From Planctomycetota bacterium (GTDB lineage Bacteria; Planctomycetota; SZUA-567; H5-PLA8), in contig JAKLKQ010000008.1 in NCBI GenBank assembly GCA_023150555.1, positions 86,778 through 150,777 on the forward strand: DNA of 64,000 bases, read 5' to 3'. Below the pieces are notes generated by a model. It had not been told where the DNA came from and made no database searches. It was given only the letters and a program-made list of their open reading frames with translations. Of this stretch, positions 10,094 to 22,619 are shown piece after piece. The position numbers and the translations under genes were made by a program. The number at the start of each line of letters is the position of its first letter. The first letter of the stretch is position 1.

Positions 10094-11032
10094 TTAAACG
10101 GCGGGAATTTGCTTCGCGGCGGCGCCGGTCTGCGGCGGAACGCCCTGCGCGTCGGGGGTCGCGCCGCTGGGGTTGGGCACGATCTCCATGTTGGGCTCGT
10201 TCTCGAGGTACGAGTCAAAGGCTTGCGCGGACCAGACTTCCATGCGGCCCTTGAGCTTGAGCAGGACCAGCTTGCTGCCCTTGCGGCCCAGGTACGGCGT
10301 GGCGAAGTCCTTGGGCAGCCGGATCTCGCCGCCGACGACCGTCGCCGTGATCGCGCGCTGCATCATTGCTTCGAGCTGCTTCTGGTCGACGCCCTTGCTC
10401 TGCTTCATCGCGTCGATCTCGTCGGCCGTGTACGCGACGATGCAAGTTTCGTACGCGCGGCTGTTTACGTTTGGGACGAGGTAGAGTTTCTCGGCCTGCG
10501 TGGCCTGCGCGACGTCGAAGGCGTTCTCGCCCAGCACCGTCTCCCAGCGCTCGGGCGCGTCGCGGCGTTCGTCTTTTAGCGCTTTCATCCGCAGCGCCAT
10601 AAGTTCTTCCGCCGTAAGGTCTTTGCCCTTCGGCAGGATCACGAAGCGCGCCACGCCGACGGCGACGAGCACCACCGCGGCGGCCGCCGCCACGTAGCGC
10701 ATCCCTGGTCCGCGCTTTTCTTCGCGACGGCGCGTGCCGAAGTTGCCGGAGACCACGCGGCGCGAGCTGGGGCGCTTGGCGCGCTGCGTCTCGCCGGCGG
10801 GCGCGGCTTTCGCCGTCGCGATTCTCTCGCGGAGCTTCGCGTTAAAGTTTTCACTGACCTGTACTTGGGGAATCGCGCGGGCGGCCTCCAGGGCCCCGCG
10901 GAGGGCCTCGAGTTCGGCGCGGCATGCGGCGCAGCCTTCGGCGTGCGCGCGGACCGCATCGGCACGCGCGGCCTCGAGCTCGCCCTGGATCAGGGCGACG
11001 AGGTCTTCGCGGAGCGGGTCGGTGCAGTCCAT
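10094..11032 (-). CDS. Transmembrane anti-sigma factor with zinc-finger (HxxxCxxC) domain
   Basis: Protein of 312 residues. The cytoplasmic N-terminus carries the anti-sigma zinc motif HAEGCAAC (H-x3-C-x2-C, near residue 30). A single membrane segment (VAAAAAVVLVAVGVARFVIL) lies near residues 112-133. The external part of about 180 residues is unrecognised. It lies 18 bp downstream of an ECF sigma factor gene, on the same strand, and should hold that sigma factor inactive at the membrane until a signal reaches the outer domain. The gene ends within a few tens of bases of the dispersed element, which would therefore lie in the 3' part of its message. Confidence 0.87.
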   Translation of the reverse strand: MDCTDPLREDLVALIQGELEAARADAVRAHAEGCAACRAELEALRGALEAARAIPQVQVSENFNAKLRERIATAKAAPAGETQRAKRPSSRRVVSGNFGTRRREEKRGPGMRYVAAAAAVVLVAVGVARFVILPKGKDLTAEELMALRMKALKDERRDAPERWETVLGENAFDVAQATQAEKLYLVPNVNSRAYETCIVAYTADEIDAMKQSKGVDQKQLEAMMQRAITATVVGGEIRLPKDFATPYLGRKGSKLVLLKLKGRMEVWSAQAFDSYLENEPNMEIVPNPSGATPDAQGVPPQTGAAAKQIPAV

Positions 11033-11050
11033 CGTTCTCTTCTCTCTCGG

Positions 11051-11668
11051 TCAGGCCTTCTCGGCCGCCTCGTCCAGCGTCTGCCAGGGCCCAGTGGTGT
11101 CCTTCAGCAGGCGCGCCAGGGACTTCCTCAGGCGCTGCACCGCGTGGAACATGCGGCTCTTGACGGTGCCGACGGGGATCTCCAGGGTCTCGCTTATCTC
11201 CTGGTACCGCATCCCTTTAACTTCGCTGAGGATGAACACGATCTTGTGTTCTTCCGGCAGCTCGTCAATCGCCTCCACCACCGCGTCCGCCAGTTCGTCC
11301 TTCTTCACCGTCGCGCCGGGGTCTTCGGCCTTCACTTGCAGCGCCACGCCCAGCGACTTGCCTTCGTCCGTCTCCGCGTCCAGCGAGCGGTTCTTGCGTT
11401 CCGACTTCGTCCGGCGCAAGTGGTCGATCCAGCAGTTGCGCGCGATGCGGTAGAGGTACGTCGTGAACTTGGCCTGGGGCGTATACTCTTCCTTGTGCAG
11501 GTACAGTTTCAGGAAGACGTCCTGGGCCAAGTCCTCCGCCAGCGCGTGCTCCCAGACCAGCCGGTGGAAGAAGTTCACGAGGCCCTGCCGGTGCCGCTCG
11601 ACCAGGACCTCGAAAGCCCCCTCATCGCCGGCCGCAAGGGCCGCCATCAGCTCGGGGTCGCTCTTCAT
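11051..11668 (-). CDS. ECF-type RNA polymerase sigma factor
   Basis: Protein of 205 residues. Region 2 covers about residues 20-90, with the -10 recognition segment AEDLAQDVFLKLY...TTYLYRIARNCWIDHLRR. Region 4 covers about residues 130-190, with ELPEEHKIVFILSEVKGMRYQEISE and the helix-turn-helix IPVGTVKSRMFHAVQRLR. There is no region 3, as expected for ECF sigmas. It is transcribed with the zinc-finger anti-sigma downstream. Targets are unknown. Confidence 0.93.
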   Translation of the reverse strand: MKSDPELMAALAAGDEGAFEVLVERHRQGLVNFFHRLVWEHALAEDLAQDVFLKLYLHKEEYTPQAKFTTYLYRIARNCWIDHLRRTKSERKNRSLDAETDEGKSLGVALQVKAEDPGATVKKDELADAVVEAIDELPEEHKIVFILSEVKGMRYQEISETLEIPVGTVKSRMFHAVQRLRKSLARLLKDTTGPWQTLDEAAEKA

Positions 11669-11982: not shown

Positions 11983-12918
11983 ATGGCCATTCTCGTCGAT
12001 TCCGCAACGCGCGTCATCTGCCAGGGCATCACCGGCAGCGCCGGCGCGACGCACACCCGCGGCTGCTACGCCTACGGCACGCGCATGGTTGGCGGCGTGA
12101 CGCCCGGCAAGGGCGGGACCTTCTTCGAGATCGAAGCCGCGCCGACCGGCGGCGGCTACGACGGCAAGGGCCCCATCAAGGAAGCCAAGCTGCCCATCTT
12201 TAACACCGTCGCCGAAGCCGTGAAGGCGACCGACGCCAACGCGACAATGATCTTCGTGCCGCCGCCCTTCGCCGCCGATGCCATCATGGAGGCCGCGGAA
12301 GCCGGCATCCGCCTGGTGATCTGCGTCACCGAGGGCATTCCCGTCGTCGACATGACCAAGGTCAAGCGCGCGCTGCAGCGCTACCCCAAGGTGCGGCTGG
12401 TCGGCCCGAACTGCCCGGGGCTGATCACGCCCGAGGCCTGCAAGATCGGCATCATGCCCGGCTACATCCACAAGGCCGGCGACATCGGGATCCTTTCGCG
12501 CAGCGGCACGCTGACCTACGAGGCCGTCTGGCAGGTGACGCAGGCGGGCTTCGGCCAGTCGAGCTGCGTCGGCATCGGCGGCGATCCCGTGAAGGGCACC
12601 GACTTCATCGACGTGCTGGAACTCTTCGAGCGCGACCCCGAGACCAAGGGCGTGGTGATGATCGGGGAGATCGGCGGCTCGGCCGAGGAAGAGGCCGCCG
12701 CGTGGATCAAGAAGAACATGTCCAAGCCCGTCGCAGCCTTCATCGCCGGCCGCACCGCGCCTCCGGGCCGCCGCATGGGCCACGCCGGCGCGATCGTGTC
12801 GGGCAAGAGCGGCACGGCGGAGAGCAAGGTCGAGGCGCTGCGCGCGGCCGGCATCGCCGTCTGCGATTCGCCCGCCGAGATCGGCGCGACGCTGCTGAAG
12901 GCGATGAAGCGCCTGTAA
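11983..12918 (+). CDS. sucD: Succinate-CoA ligase (ADP/GDP-forming) alpha subunit
   Basis: Protein of 311 residues with the family layout: a CoA-binding Rossmann domain opening with [17 protein letters not shown] and VTPGKGG, a [12 protein letters not shown] motif, and the phospho-His segment [13 protein letters not shown] near residue 265. The enzyme interconverts succinyl-CoA and succinate with nucleotide phosphorylation. GGGAGC lies upstream of the ATG. The beta subunit gene (sucC), usually immediately upstream, is not here or anywhere in the window, so the partner must be encoded elsewhere. A small zinc-ribbon gene follows by 13 bp. Confidence 0.95.
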
Positions 12919-12931
12919 TCGGGGACCGAGC

Positions 12932-13207
12932 ATGCCTGGCGACACCGGACCGGTAAAACGCTGCCTTCGCTGCGGCACCGCCATCCGCAAGCGGGTGGTC
13001 TGCCCCAGCTGCGGCTACGAGGTCCTGCCCGACAGCCAGGGTCCCTCTCCCGGCGTCACCAGCACGCAGGGTCCGATGAAGATGTGCGCGATCTGCATGG
13101 AGTCCGTGCCCGAGCACGAACTGATGGCCTTCGCCGGCCAGGAAGTCTGCCCGGACTGCTTCGAGTCCGTCAGCGGCGAAGAAGCGCCCCTAGAAGCCGG
13201 CCAGTAG
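12932..13207 (+). CDS. Small double zinc-ribbon protein
   Basis: Protein of 91 residues with two Cys-rich ribbons: CLRCGTA...CPSCGYE (residues about 11-28) and CAICMES...CPDCFES (about 52-75). All eight Cys are in CxxC pairs, so two structural zinc ions are likely. There are no membrane segments. It is probably co-transcribed with sucD. Function unknown; no link to succinate metabolism is visible. Confidence 0.7.
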   Translation: MPGDTGPVKRCLRCGTAIRKRVVCPSCGYEVLPDSQGPSPGVTSTQGPMKMCAICMESVPEHELMAFAGQEVCPDCFESVSGEEAPLEAGQ

Positions 13208-13267: not shown

Positions 13268-14719
13268 TTAGAACTCGTCCTCGAACGGGACCTGGGTGGC
13301 CGTACGGGAGAGCTTCGCCTGTCCGGCAAAGCGCGCCCGCTGGTCGTCGGCGAGGGCCCGCAGGTCGGGCTCCTGCGCGCCGTGCTCGTTCAGAAACGCG
13401 TTCCAGGCCTGCGCGCCCGCCGCGGGATCGCGCAGGAAGGCCGCTTCGCGTCCCTTCAGCGCCTGGTAGTCGGCGAGGGCCCTGGCGCGTGCGTCCAGAG
13501 GCGACGATGCCGCGGGCGCGGCCGGCGCGGCTTGGCGCAGGTGAGGCTCCGGCTGCGGGGCGGCGGCGAGCCTGCCGCTCAAGAGCGCGTAGGCGCCCAG
13601 GCAGGCCAGGCCCAGCAGCAGAACGGCCGTCGCGGCGGCGCTGAAGATCCCGAAGTTGCGGAAGAAGCGGTCCCAGTCGGCGTGCGACGCGGCATTCCAG
13701 AAACGCGGGGCCGAAGCGCGGGGTTTGGCGGCGGGCCCGGGTTTCGCGGCGTGCGGAGCCAACGCGGCGAGCGGGTGCGGCTTGGCCTCTGCGTTTCCGG
13801 GCTTCTCGCTGCTGTAGTCCTGCAGCGAGACGAGGTGCTCGAGGCGACGCGCGACGTCCTTGGGGTCGGCCAGGCGGTCGTCGGGGCACTTCTTCAGCAG
13901 GTGCATGGTGAGCTTCTCGTACGTCTCGCTGAATTCCGGACGCAGCGCGCGCAGCGGCTGGGGCTCCTCGTAGAGGTGCTTGGCCATGACGGCGGCGGGC
14001 ACGCCCTTCTCGAAGGGCGGGTGGCCGGCGGCCATGACGTACATCGTCACGCCCAGGGCGTAGAAGTCGCTGCGCGGGTCGTTGCAGTTGCCGCGGATCA
14101 TCTCGGGGGCCATGAAATGCGGCGTCCCGATGGTGTGCTCGTCCAGGTGCTTGGCGAAGCAGGCGGCCTCGCACTTGGCCAGGCCCAGGCCGACCAGGCG
14201 CACGCGCCCGTCGGGCTCGACCATCACGTTCCGAGGCTTGAGGTTTCGGTGCACGATGCCCTTCTGCTGCAGCGCGGCCAGGGCGCGCGCGATCTGCAGG
14301 GCGATGGCGGCGGCGCGGCGTTCGCTGAAGGTGCCGCGCTCCGAGAGCATGTCCTGCAGCGTGCGGCCGCCGATGTACTCCAGCGCCGCGTAGTGGAAAC
14401 CGTCGGAGGTGCCGGTGTCGTAGAGCACCGGGAGATTGGGATGCACGACCTGCGCGAGCACGTAGGTGCTGCGGTTGAAGCGTTCCAGCGTCACCTCGCG
14501 CGGCGGCGGCCACTCGGGCAGCAGCTTCAGCGCGACGGTGCGGCCCATGCGTTCCTGGCGCGCCTTGTAGAGGGTGCAGACGGAACCTTCGTTGAGCATC
14601 TCCACCAGCGTGTAGCCGGCCACGCGCGGGAGCTCGAGCTTCGGCGTGGAACCGGTGGTGCTCTGAAGGCCGCTGGCGGAAGACATATCGGCTCTCTGGG
14701 CCAGGGGGAGCGGCGTCAT
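13268..14719 (-). CDS. Membrane-anchored Ser/Thr kinase fold, predicted pseudokinase
   Basis: Protein of 483 residues. A bacterial Ser/Thr kinase fold spans about residues 35-295, with the ATP-binding Lys kept in VALKLL (Lys65), GTPHFMAPE and SDFYALG intact. However the catalytic loop reads HRNLKPRN, so the HRD Asp is Asn159; the DFG motif reads GLG (Gly177); the alphaC Glu position is Ser84; and the Gly-rich loop is degenerate (NEGSVCTLY). I checked these codons on the DNA (aac and ggc). A membrane segment (about 357-381) leads to a 100-residue tail. Ordinary phosphotransfer is therefore unlikely and a scaffold or ligand-sensor role is more probable. An internal ATG 11 codons in is an alternative start. 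Confidence 0.88.
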   Translation of the reverse strand: MTPLPLAQRADMSSASGLQSTTGSTPKLELPRVAGYTLVEMLNEGSVCTLYKARQERMGRTVALKLLPEWPPPREVTLERFNRSTYVLAQVVHPNLPVLYDTGTSDGFHYAALEYIGGRTLQDMLSERGTFSERRAAAIALQIARALAALQQKGIVHRNLKPRNVMVEPDGRVRLVGLGLAKCEAACFAKHLDEHTIGTPHFMAPEMIRGNCNDPRSDFYALGVTMYVMAAGHPPFEKGVPAAVMAKHLYEEPQPLRALRPEFSETYEKLTMHLLKKCPDDRLADPKDVARRLEHLVSLQDYSSEKPGNAEAKPHPLAALAPHAAKPGPAAKPRASAPRFWNAASHADWDRFFRNFGIFSAAATAVLLLGLACLGAYALLSGRLAAAPQPEPHLRQAAPAAPAASSPLDARARALADYQALKGREAAFLRDPAAGAQAWNAFLNEHGAQEPDLRALADDQRARFAGQAKLSRTATQVPFEDEF

Positions 14720-20183: not shown

Positions 20184-22619
20184 TCAGCGGTCGCGCAGCG
20201 AGCGCAGGTCCACGGGCGTGTGCGAGACCAGCGCCGCGGAGGGCTCGGCGCTCGGATGGATCGTGGGCTCGCCCAGCACCGCGTTCAGGTCCACGCGGTC
20301 TTCGGTCAGGCGCAGGCCGTTGACGACGACCAGGATCGAACTGGCGGCGGCGGCCGCGGCGGCCACGCCGATGTCCAGCCGGTCCAGCGCCGCCAGCGGG
20401 ATCATCACCGCGTTGAACGAGAAGGCCCAGACGAGGTTCCAGCGGATCAGCCGCAGGGCTTCGTGGCACAGCAGCAGCGCGCGGGCCACGCCGCGCGGAT
20501 CGTCGCCGACCAGCACGATCGCGCCGGCCTCGACGGACAGGTCGGTGCCCGTGCCCAGCGCCAGGCCCACGTCGGCGGCGGCCATGGCGGGCGCGTCGTT
20601 GACGCCGTCGCCGACCATGGCGACGCGGTGGCCTTTGCGCTTGAGCGAGAGCGTGAACTCGATCTTTTCCTCGGTGTCCATCCCTGCGTGAATCTCGTCG
20701 GGCTCCAGCCCGCAGCGCTCGCCCACGGCCTTCGCCGCGCCGGGATGGTCGCCGGAGAGCAGGTGCACGTCCAGGCCCAGGTCGCGGAGGTCGTCCAGGG
20801 CCTCGGGGGCGGTGGCGCGGACTTCGTCGCTGAGCGCGATCGCGCCTAGCAGGCGCCCGCTGGCGTCGGCGAGGAACGTCGTCGTCGCGCCGGCGGCCTC
20901 GGCCTTCGCGATGGCCGTGCCCAGTTCGCCGCGAATGGCGACCTCGTGGTCTTCCATCAGCGAGCGCGAGCCCAGCAGGTAGTCCCGGCCCCCGATGCGC
21001 CCGCGCAGGCCGCGCCCGGGCAGCGCTTCGAAGTCCTCGACCTTCCGCAGCACCACGGTGCTCTTCTTGGCCTCGACGATCACGCTCTTGGCCAGCGGGT
21101 GCTCGCTGCAGGCTTCCAGCGAGCCGGCGAGGTTCATCAGGTCTTCGCGGCTGATGCCTTCGGCGGTCAGCACGGCGCGGGTGCGGTAGGTGCCGGTGGT
21201 CAGGATGCCGGTCTTGTCGAAGAGCACGTCGGTGACGCGCCCGGCGGCCTCGATGGCCTGGCCGCCCTTGATCAGGATGCCGCGCCGCGCGCCCAGCCCG
21301 GTGGCGACCAGCACCACCGCCGGGGAGGCCAGCCCCAGCGCGCAGGGGCAGGCGGCGACCAGCACCGCGATCGTGGGGCGCAGCGCCGAAGGCAGGGTGC
21401 TTTCGTGCGTGAGGAAATCGAACCAGCCGCTGGCCAGGGTCTTCAGCGTCTCGGCGGAGAGGTAATGCTTCGCCGCGTACGGGCCCAGGTACCAGACGAA
21501 GAAGGTCCCGATGGCCAGCAGGATCACGATGGGCACGAAGACGGCCGAGATGCGGTCGGCCAGCAGCTGCACCGGCGCCTTCTGCGTCTGCGCGTCGGCG
21601 ACCAGGCGGCTGATCTGGGCCAGGGTGGAGGAATCGCCCACGCCGGTGGCGCGGATCTTCAGCGTACCGCCGCCGTTGACGCTGGCGACGATGACGCGGT
21701 CGCCTTTCACCTTGGGCTCGGGGCGACCTTCGCCGGTCAGCAGGGCTTCGTTGACCTGGCTGCTGCCGTCCACCACGATGCCGTCGACGGGGATCTTCTC
21801 GCCGGCCTTCACGACCACCGTGTCGCCGACGGCCACCACGCCGGCGGGGATCACCTGCTCGCGCCCGTCGCGCAGCACCCGCGCTTCGGCGGGCATCATC
21901 TGCATCAGGTTGCCGTAGAGCTTCGTGCCCGACTCTCTCGCGCGCGATTCCAGGTAGCGCCCCAGCGTCACGACGGTCAGGATCGCGCACGAGGCCAGGA
22001 ACAGCGGGTACCACTTGCCAAGCGCCGGATCGCCGGAGACCGCGCCGATGAAGGACAGCACGCCCTGCGCGTAGGCCGCCGTCGCGCCGATCGCCACCAG
22101 GCTGTCCATGTTGAACGAGAAACGCCGCAGCGCGCGGAAGAAGCCCATGTAGTACGCCCAGCCCACCGTGATCTGCACCGGCGTGGCGAGCAGGAACATC
22201 CACAGCGCGCGGTTCTTGCTGTCGCCGCCCATGCAGCGGTCGACGACGAACAACAGCGCCGTCAGCACCGCGCCGGTGACCAGCCGCGCTTTCAGCGACG
22301 AGGCGTCGTCCTGCGCCGCCTGCCCGGCTTCGCGCGTGCGCGGGTCGCCGCCCACGCCGGCGGGCGTGGCTTCGTAGCCGACGGCCGCGAGCGCCTGCAC
22401 CAGATGATGCGGCTGGACGTTCGCGCTGTGCCGGACGGTGGCCATGCGCGTGAGCAGATTCGTGGAAGCGGCGGTGACGCCGGGCATCGAGCGCAGCGCC
22501 TTCTCGATGCGCGTCACGCACGTGCCGCTGTGCATGCCGCCGACGACCAGCACCGTGATGCATTCCTTGCGGTCGGAAGAGCTCGAACGGCGGCTGGACA
22601 GGGCAACGCGGGTGCTCAT
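20184..22619 (-). CDS. copA: P1B-type heavy-metal (copper/silver class) ATPase with degenerate HMA domain
   Basis: Protein of 811 residues. The membrane motif CPC (ACPCALGLASP, near residue 424) marks Cu(+)/Ag(+) pumps. DKTG with the phosphorylated Asp is near 467, the nucleotide-binding SEHPLA motif is present, as are TGE and GDGVNDAP. It should export copper from the cytoplasm. The N-terminal metal-binding domain normally has MxCxxC; here it reads MHSGTC (residues 29-34), so the first Cys is Ser and copper binding by that domain is doubtful. No chaperone or copper regulator is next to it; the gene stands alone, convergent with the zinc-ribbon protein gene. Confidence 0.9.
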   Translation of the reverse strand: MSTRVALSSRRSSSSDRKECITVLVVGGMHSGTCVTRIEKALRSMPGVTAASTNLLTRMATVRHSANVQPHHLVQALAAVGYEATPAGVGGDPRTREAGQAAQDDASSLKARLVTGAVLTALLFVVDRCMGGDSKNRALWMFLLATPVQITVGWAYYMGFFRALRRFSFNMDSLVAIGATAAYAQGVLSFIGAVSGDPALGKWYPLFLASCAILTVVTLGRYLESRARESGTKLYGNLMQMMPAEARVLRDGREQVIPAGVVAVGDTVVVKAGEKIPVDGIVVDGSSQVNEALLTGEGRPEPKVKGDRVIVASVNGGGTLKIRATGVGDSSTLAQISRLVADAQTQKAPVQLLADRISAVFVPIVILLAIGTFFVWYLGPYAAKHYLSAETLKTLASGWFDFLTHESTLPSALRPTIAVLVAACPCALGLASPAVVLVATGLGARRGILIKGGQAIEAAGRVTDVLFDKTGILTTGTYRTRAVLTAEGISREDLMNLAGSLEACSEHPLAKSVIVEAKKSTVVLRKVEDFEALPGRGLRGRIGGRDYLLGSRSLMEDHEVAIRGELGTAIAKAEAAGATTTFLADASGRLLGAIALSDEVRATAPEALDDLRDLGLDVHLLSGDHPGAAKAVGERCGLEPDEIHAGMDTEEKIEFTLSLKRKGHRVAMVGDGVNDAPAMAAADVGLALGTGTDLSVEAGAIVLVGDDPRGVARALLLCHEALRLIRWNLVWAFSFNAVMIPLAALDRLDIGVAAAAAAASSILVVVNGLRLTEDRVDLNAVLGEPTIHPSAEPSAALVSHTPVDLRSLRDR

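Follow-up and report, generated by a model that had tools for sequence, protein, structure and literature searches.

A predicted transmembrane Hanks-type pseudokinase with fixed loss of catalytic residues in a family of Planctomycetota

A family of the Planctomycetota encodes a predicted membrane-anchored, PknB-like protein that has lost the HRD Asp, the DFG Asp and the alphaC Glu, and comparison of its sequences shows that this loss of catalytic residues is fixed and under purifying selection. The protein is probably a transmembrane Hanks-type pseudokinase that acts as a non-phosphorylating scaffold or allosteric regulator. A non-catalytic membrane sensor or scaffold had been proposed in an earlier note on this DNA, and the proposal gains support from the fixation of the losses in the orthologs together with the retention of the fold, the transmembrane helix and purifying selection. 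The protein represents a new pseudokinase family; bacterial pseudokinases as a kind are already known.

The gene and its catalytic residues

The pseudokinase gene is a single open reading frame of the window, by which we mean the whole stretch of 64,000 nucleotides that was analysed (Table 1). Its conserved start is probably Met12 and not Met1 (14719), as three orthologs have their first available Met at the place of Met12 and the two others have an internal Met there. The Pfam scan matched kinase families and nothing beyond them, with PF00069 (Pkinase) covering residues 36-284 at 140 bits (E 1.2e-40, cut-off 31.7). Reading of the codons confirmed every residue named in the earlier note, that is, the substituted Asn159, Gly177 and Ser84 and the kept Lys65, APE and Asp218. 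The HRN motif is encoded by CAC (H157), CGA (R158) and AAC (N159), and the other kept sites are K161 (AAG), N164 (AAC), E206 of the APE motif (GAG) and D218 (GAC).

Table 1. Features of the pseudokinase gene and its neighbours in the window
Feature	Position	Strand	Remarks
Pseudokinase gene	13268..14719	-	483 aa; 472 aa if start is Met12 (14686)
Hanks-type kinase domain, ~residues 33-296	13832..14623	-	PknB-like fold (predicted), pLDDT mostly >90
Lys65, beta3 ATP lysine, AAG	14525..14527	-	Kept; invariant in 6 orthologs
Ser84, AGC, at alphaC Glu position	14468..14470	-	Ala in five orthologs
Asn159, AAC, in place of HRD catalytic Asp	14243..14245	-	Invariant in 6 orthologs
Gly177-Leu178-Gly179 (GGC CTG GGC) for DFG	14183..14191	-	Gly177 (14189-14191) invariant in 6 orthologs
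Single transmembrane helix (predicted), ~residues 356-376	13592..13654	-	Mean hydropathy 2.24 over 19 aa
C-terminal helical domain (407-474) and tail ending acidic-Phe	13271..13501	-	Group-specific
Secreted-type VIT / VWA / TPR protein, 1110 aa	15006..18338	-	Candidate partner; neighbourhood kept in several relatives
Small zinc-ribbon protein	12932..13207	+	Place kept in G001 and G003
Succinyl-CoA ligase alpha-like protein	11983..12918	+	Place kept in G001 and G003

In a protein search of 41 genomes, one clear ortholog per genome turned up in all but one of the six other family members (G001, G002, G003, G005 and G006), with 48-63% identity across the aligned portion; the remaining kinases reached at most 40%. 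Repeating the search with the G005 domain likewise returned a single match per genome (E 1e-60 or better), with no match in G004 or in the two genomes from another family of that order; G004 is 79% complete and split into 1320 contigs, so its missing ortholog carries little weight. G002 corresponds to a Planctomycetota MAG that is public as JAPLOD010000717.1. Alignment with close relatives, a check suggested in the earlier note, revealed all three losses in the five orthologs: HRN, G(L/M)G and Ser or Ala at position 84 are common to all six sequences, from which we infer that the losses are old and fixed. Thus none of the residues expected of an active Ser/Thr kinase (HRD Asp, DFG Asp and alphaC Glu) is present in any of them. 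If a pseudokinase is defined by the loss of at least one of the ATP Lys, HRD Asp and DFG Asp, two of these three are lost throughout the group.

We compared the orthologs with 103 active-type kinases picked by their HxD and DxG motifs. Position 84 is Glu in 98% of this set, and Asp occupies positions 159 and 177 in 103/103, which follows from the motif-based choice of the set. The ortholog group has further lost most of the glycines of the glycine loop, at positions 43 (Gly in 85% of the set) and 48 (92%; one of the six orthologs keeps it), and the activation-loop Thr191 (78%).

Lys65, Lys161, Asn164, Glu206 and Asp218 are invariant in all six orthologs, and the first three may leave room for nucleotide binding and for residual or unusual chemistry. 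The protein could on this account be a catalytically unusual enzyme performing another ATP-dependent transfer or a weak phosphotransfer, as the invariance of these three and of Asp218 would favour; pseudokinases with other chemistries do exist, SelO being an AMPylase and SidJ a glutamylase (PMC12599244). However, SelO and SidJ retain a DFG-type Asp (PMC12599244, table), whereas no compensating acidic residue was seen at position 84 or at or beside position 177 in the six sequences, and the glycine loop is degraded, which makes such an enzyme unlikely.

HRN kinases in the phylum

The DNA pattern for HRN-(I/L/V/M)-K-P-x-N was present in 26 of 392 Planctomycetota genomes, the six ortholog genomes included, which is a minimum for HRN kinases, as the pattern needs exact flanking residues and not all matches were alignable. 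The DFG Asp is kept in most of the 21 other HRN domains that were aligned to the kinase set, including some that have lost the alphaC Glu. The idea that only the six orthologs pair HRN with a missing DFG Asp was rejected, because DFG is also replaced in the HRN kinases L113 (GFG), L134 (GWR), L139 (EWG) and L133 (AWG), all four of which keep the alphaC Glu. Of all HRN kinases detected in the 392 genomes, the six orthologs alone combine the losses of HRD Asp, DFG Asp and alphaC Glu.

The other HRN kinases (L113-L124 and L131-L142) come from various other Planctomycetota families and in many cases have D-x-G intact, and it seems that HRN evolved on several occasions in the phylum. The occurrence of HRN with an intact D-x-G suggests that HRN alone may be tolerated, and an ordinary active kinase tolerating both HRN and GLG might be envisaged, but with both Asp residues and the alphaC Glu missing in all orthologs this is very improbable. 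Canonical phosphotransfer is very unlikely in a kinase that lacks the HRD and DFG Asp.

Phylogeny and selection

In a tree inferred from 140 kinases, the six orthologs formed one clade (SH-aLRT 100) on a long stem of ~1.0 changes per site; the tree was a quick one, not bootstrapped, and its paralogs were sampled by best hits. Nearest to this clade were L038, L020 and L043 (SH-aLRT 94), with intact HRD and DLG motifs. The dN/dS (NG86) of the kinase domain was ~0.14 (G005/G001) and ~0.21 (G003/G006) and that of the linker and C-terminus 0.38-0.64 in the same two genome pairs, all of these being rough values owing to codon bias in GC-rich genomes. On these ratios the kinase domain is under purifying selection, and its identity across the family genomes is about that of an active paralog.

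Alteration of several catalytic sites is also what a decaying gene would display, that is, a kinase paralog drifting after loss of function. The low dN/dS of the domain, the open frame in six genomes and the invariance of N159 and G177 speak against drift, and gene decay, of which we give only the slightest chance, was rejected on the ground of purifying selection. A sequencing or assembly error, conceivable as the window comes from a 183-contig draft genome, was rejected as next to impossible because five other assemblies carry these changes too. Their retention in these related genomes argues for a real, selected pseudokinase family.

Predicted fold and membrane topology

Structure prediction, which the earlier note had also called for, returned a PknB-like domain, a single transmembrane helix and a helical C-terminal domain, and this model together with the Pkinase match bears out the otherwise well-kept kinase fold described there. 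The AlphaFold2 model was built on a 25-row alignment consisting mostly of canonical kinases from viral_contigs, which were added for depth only; for this reason its active-site geometry was given no weight. An earlier run with two sequences (pLDDT 42) was not used. Mean pLDDT of the model was 81, exceeding 90 across most of residues 31-300, and PknB was the best Foldseek match among solved structures (TM 0.90, normalised by target). The profile match above cut-off and the predicted bilobal fold place the protein among Hanks-type (PknB-like) kinases.

The hydrophobic stretch at residues 356-376 falls inside a predicted helix (344-383). The C-terminal domain was restricted to the six orthologs within the family, one marginal match aside. 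A profile search of viral_contigs yielded no relatives.

Relation to known kinases and pseudokinases

PknB of Mycobacterium tuberculosis and the PASTA kinases are among the closest known systems, PknB being the best match by profile as well as by fold among solved structures. Their layout, in which a single transmembrane helix joins a cytoplasmic kinase to a C-terminal portion on the far side of the membrane, is also the one predicted for the pseudokinase. However, PknB is active, whereas the pseudokinase is without the HRD Asp, DFG Asp and alphaC Glu; unlike in PASTA kinases its C-terminus is predicted to be helical, and it scored 217.5 bits against the PASTA kinase model NF033483, below the cut-off of 450.

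Seven bacterial pseudokinase families, ActPs1-3, GLW, CP1, DYD and DLHK, were described in a 2025 review, in which some bacterial kinomes consist of up to 67% pseudokinases (PMC12599244). The assertion in the earlier note that such proteins are rarely described in bacteria is therefore only partly right, as several more degraded domains also occur in this genome. The seven families are likewise Hanks-type with degraded motifs, several having a C-terminal transmembrane region; the ATP Lys is missing from most of them, and the HRD Asp is retained in DLHK (PMC12599244). According to these published descriptions the beta3 Lys is lost or replaced in ActPs1, ActPs3, GLW, DYD and DLHK, which sets them apart from the present family with its Lys65. 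CP1 differs in having a COG3899 ATPase domain and no transmembrane region, in contrast to the kinase-only Pfam matches and predicted transmembrane helix found here. Retention of the Lys with loss of both the HRD and DFG Asp is a family trait of none of the seven, CP1 being variable (PMC12599244). The pseudokinase domain of MviN and EssB/YukC also belong to membrane proteins in which a pseudokinase domain works through protein contacts, but their architectures are different and both are without the ATP Lys (PMC12599244, table). The review makes no mention of Planctomycetota (PMC12599244), and in our literature search, with partial coverage of journals, nothing specific on Planctomycetota kinomes or pseudokinases was found.

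Planctomycetota kinase sets can be very large, and no functional survey of them was found in the literature covered. A pseudokinase that is fixed as a single-copy gene throughout a family, and that retains the ATP Lys but has neither of the two Asp residues nor the alphaC Glu, offers a clean test case. Among eukaryotic pseudokinases, DFG is replaced by GLR in STRAD-alpha and HRD by HRN in HER3, and both proteins are allosteric partners of active kinases, although they are only distant relatives of the protein described here. This raises the question whether dead kinases serve as allosteric partners in bacterial kinase networks as they do in eukaryotes.

The genome of the window (G000) has ~80 kinase domains, of which ~7 besides this pseudokinase have degraded motifs, the census having been made from stretches of the genome so that the counts are approximate. 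Domains with degraded HRD and/or DFG are the first domains of L088 and L096, and L106, L107, L108, L109 and L111. L107 has HGR with GVG, the alignment of such divergent domains being uncertain.

Gene neighbourhood and proposed role

In G000 and G003 the gene immediately upstream of the pseudokinase gene, in the same orientation, encodes a protein with VIT, VWA and TPR matches and an N-terminus that is signal-like by eye. One gene separates the two in G001 and G005 (thioredoxin-like in G005). In G006 they share a strand but lie ~20 kb apart, and in G002 they are on different contigs. The gap between them in the window is 286 bases, and a joint transcript is therefore not to be assumed.

In the mechanism that we propose, the cytoplasmic kinase domain would be unable to transfer phosphate canonically and would retain its PknB-like shape, perhaps with Mg-independent nucleotide binding through Lys65. 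It may then have a scaffold or allosteric role, possibly on one of the ~70 active-type kinases of the same cell, and the small helical C-terminal domain would lie on the opposite side of the membrane. The VIT/VWA/TPR neighbour is, by gene position alone, the most obvious candidate partner. A further and rather doubtful suggestion is that this Planctomycetota-specific transmembrane pseudokinase couples the cytoplasmic kinase network to the secreted-type VIT/VWA/TPR protein without catalysis, as an allosteric partner.

The succinyl-CoA ligase alpha-like neighbour is probably functionally unrelated to the pseudokinase. Farther away on the minus strand (10094-11668), an ECF-type sigma factor is followed by a zf-HC2 protein, the two being likely a sigma/anti-sigma pair. 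A heavy-metal P-type ATPase is encoded at 20184-22619 on the minus strand, and its homolog is also found near the pseudokinase gene in G005.
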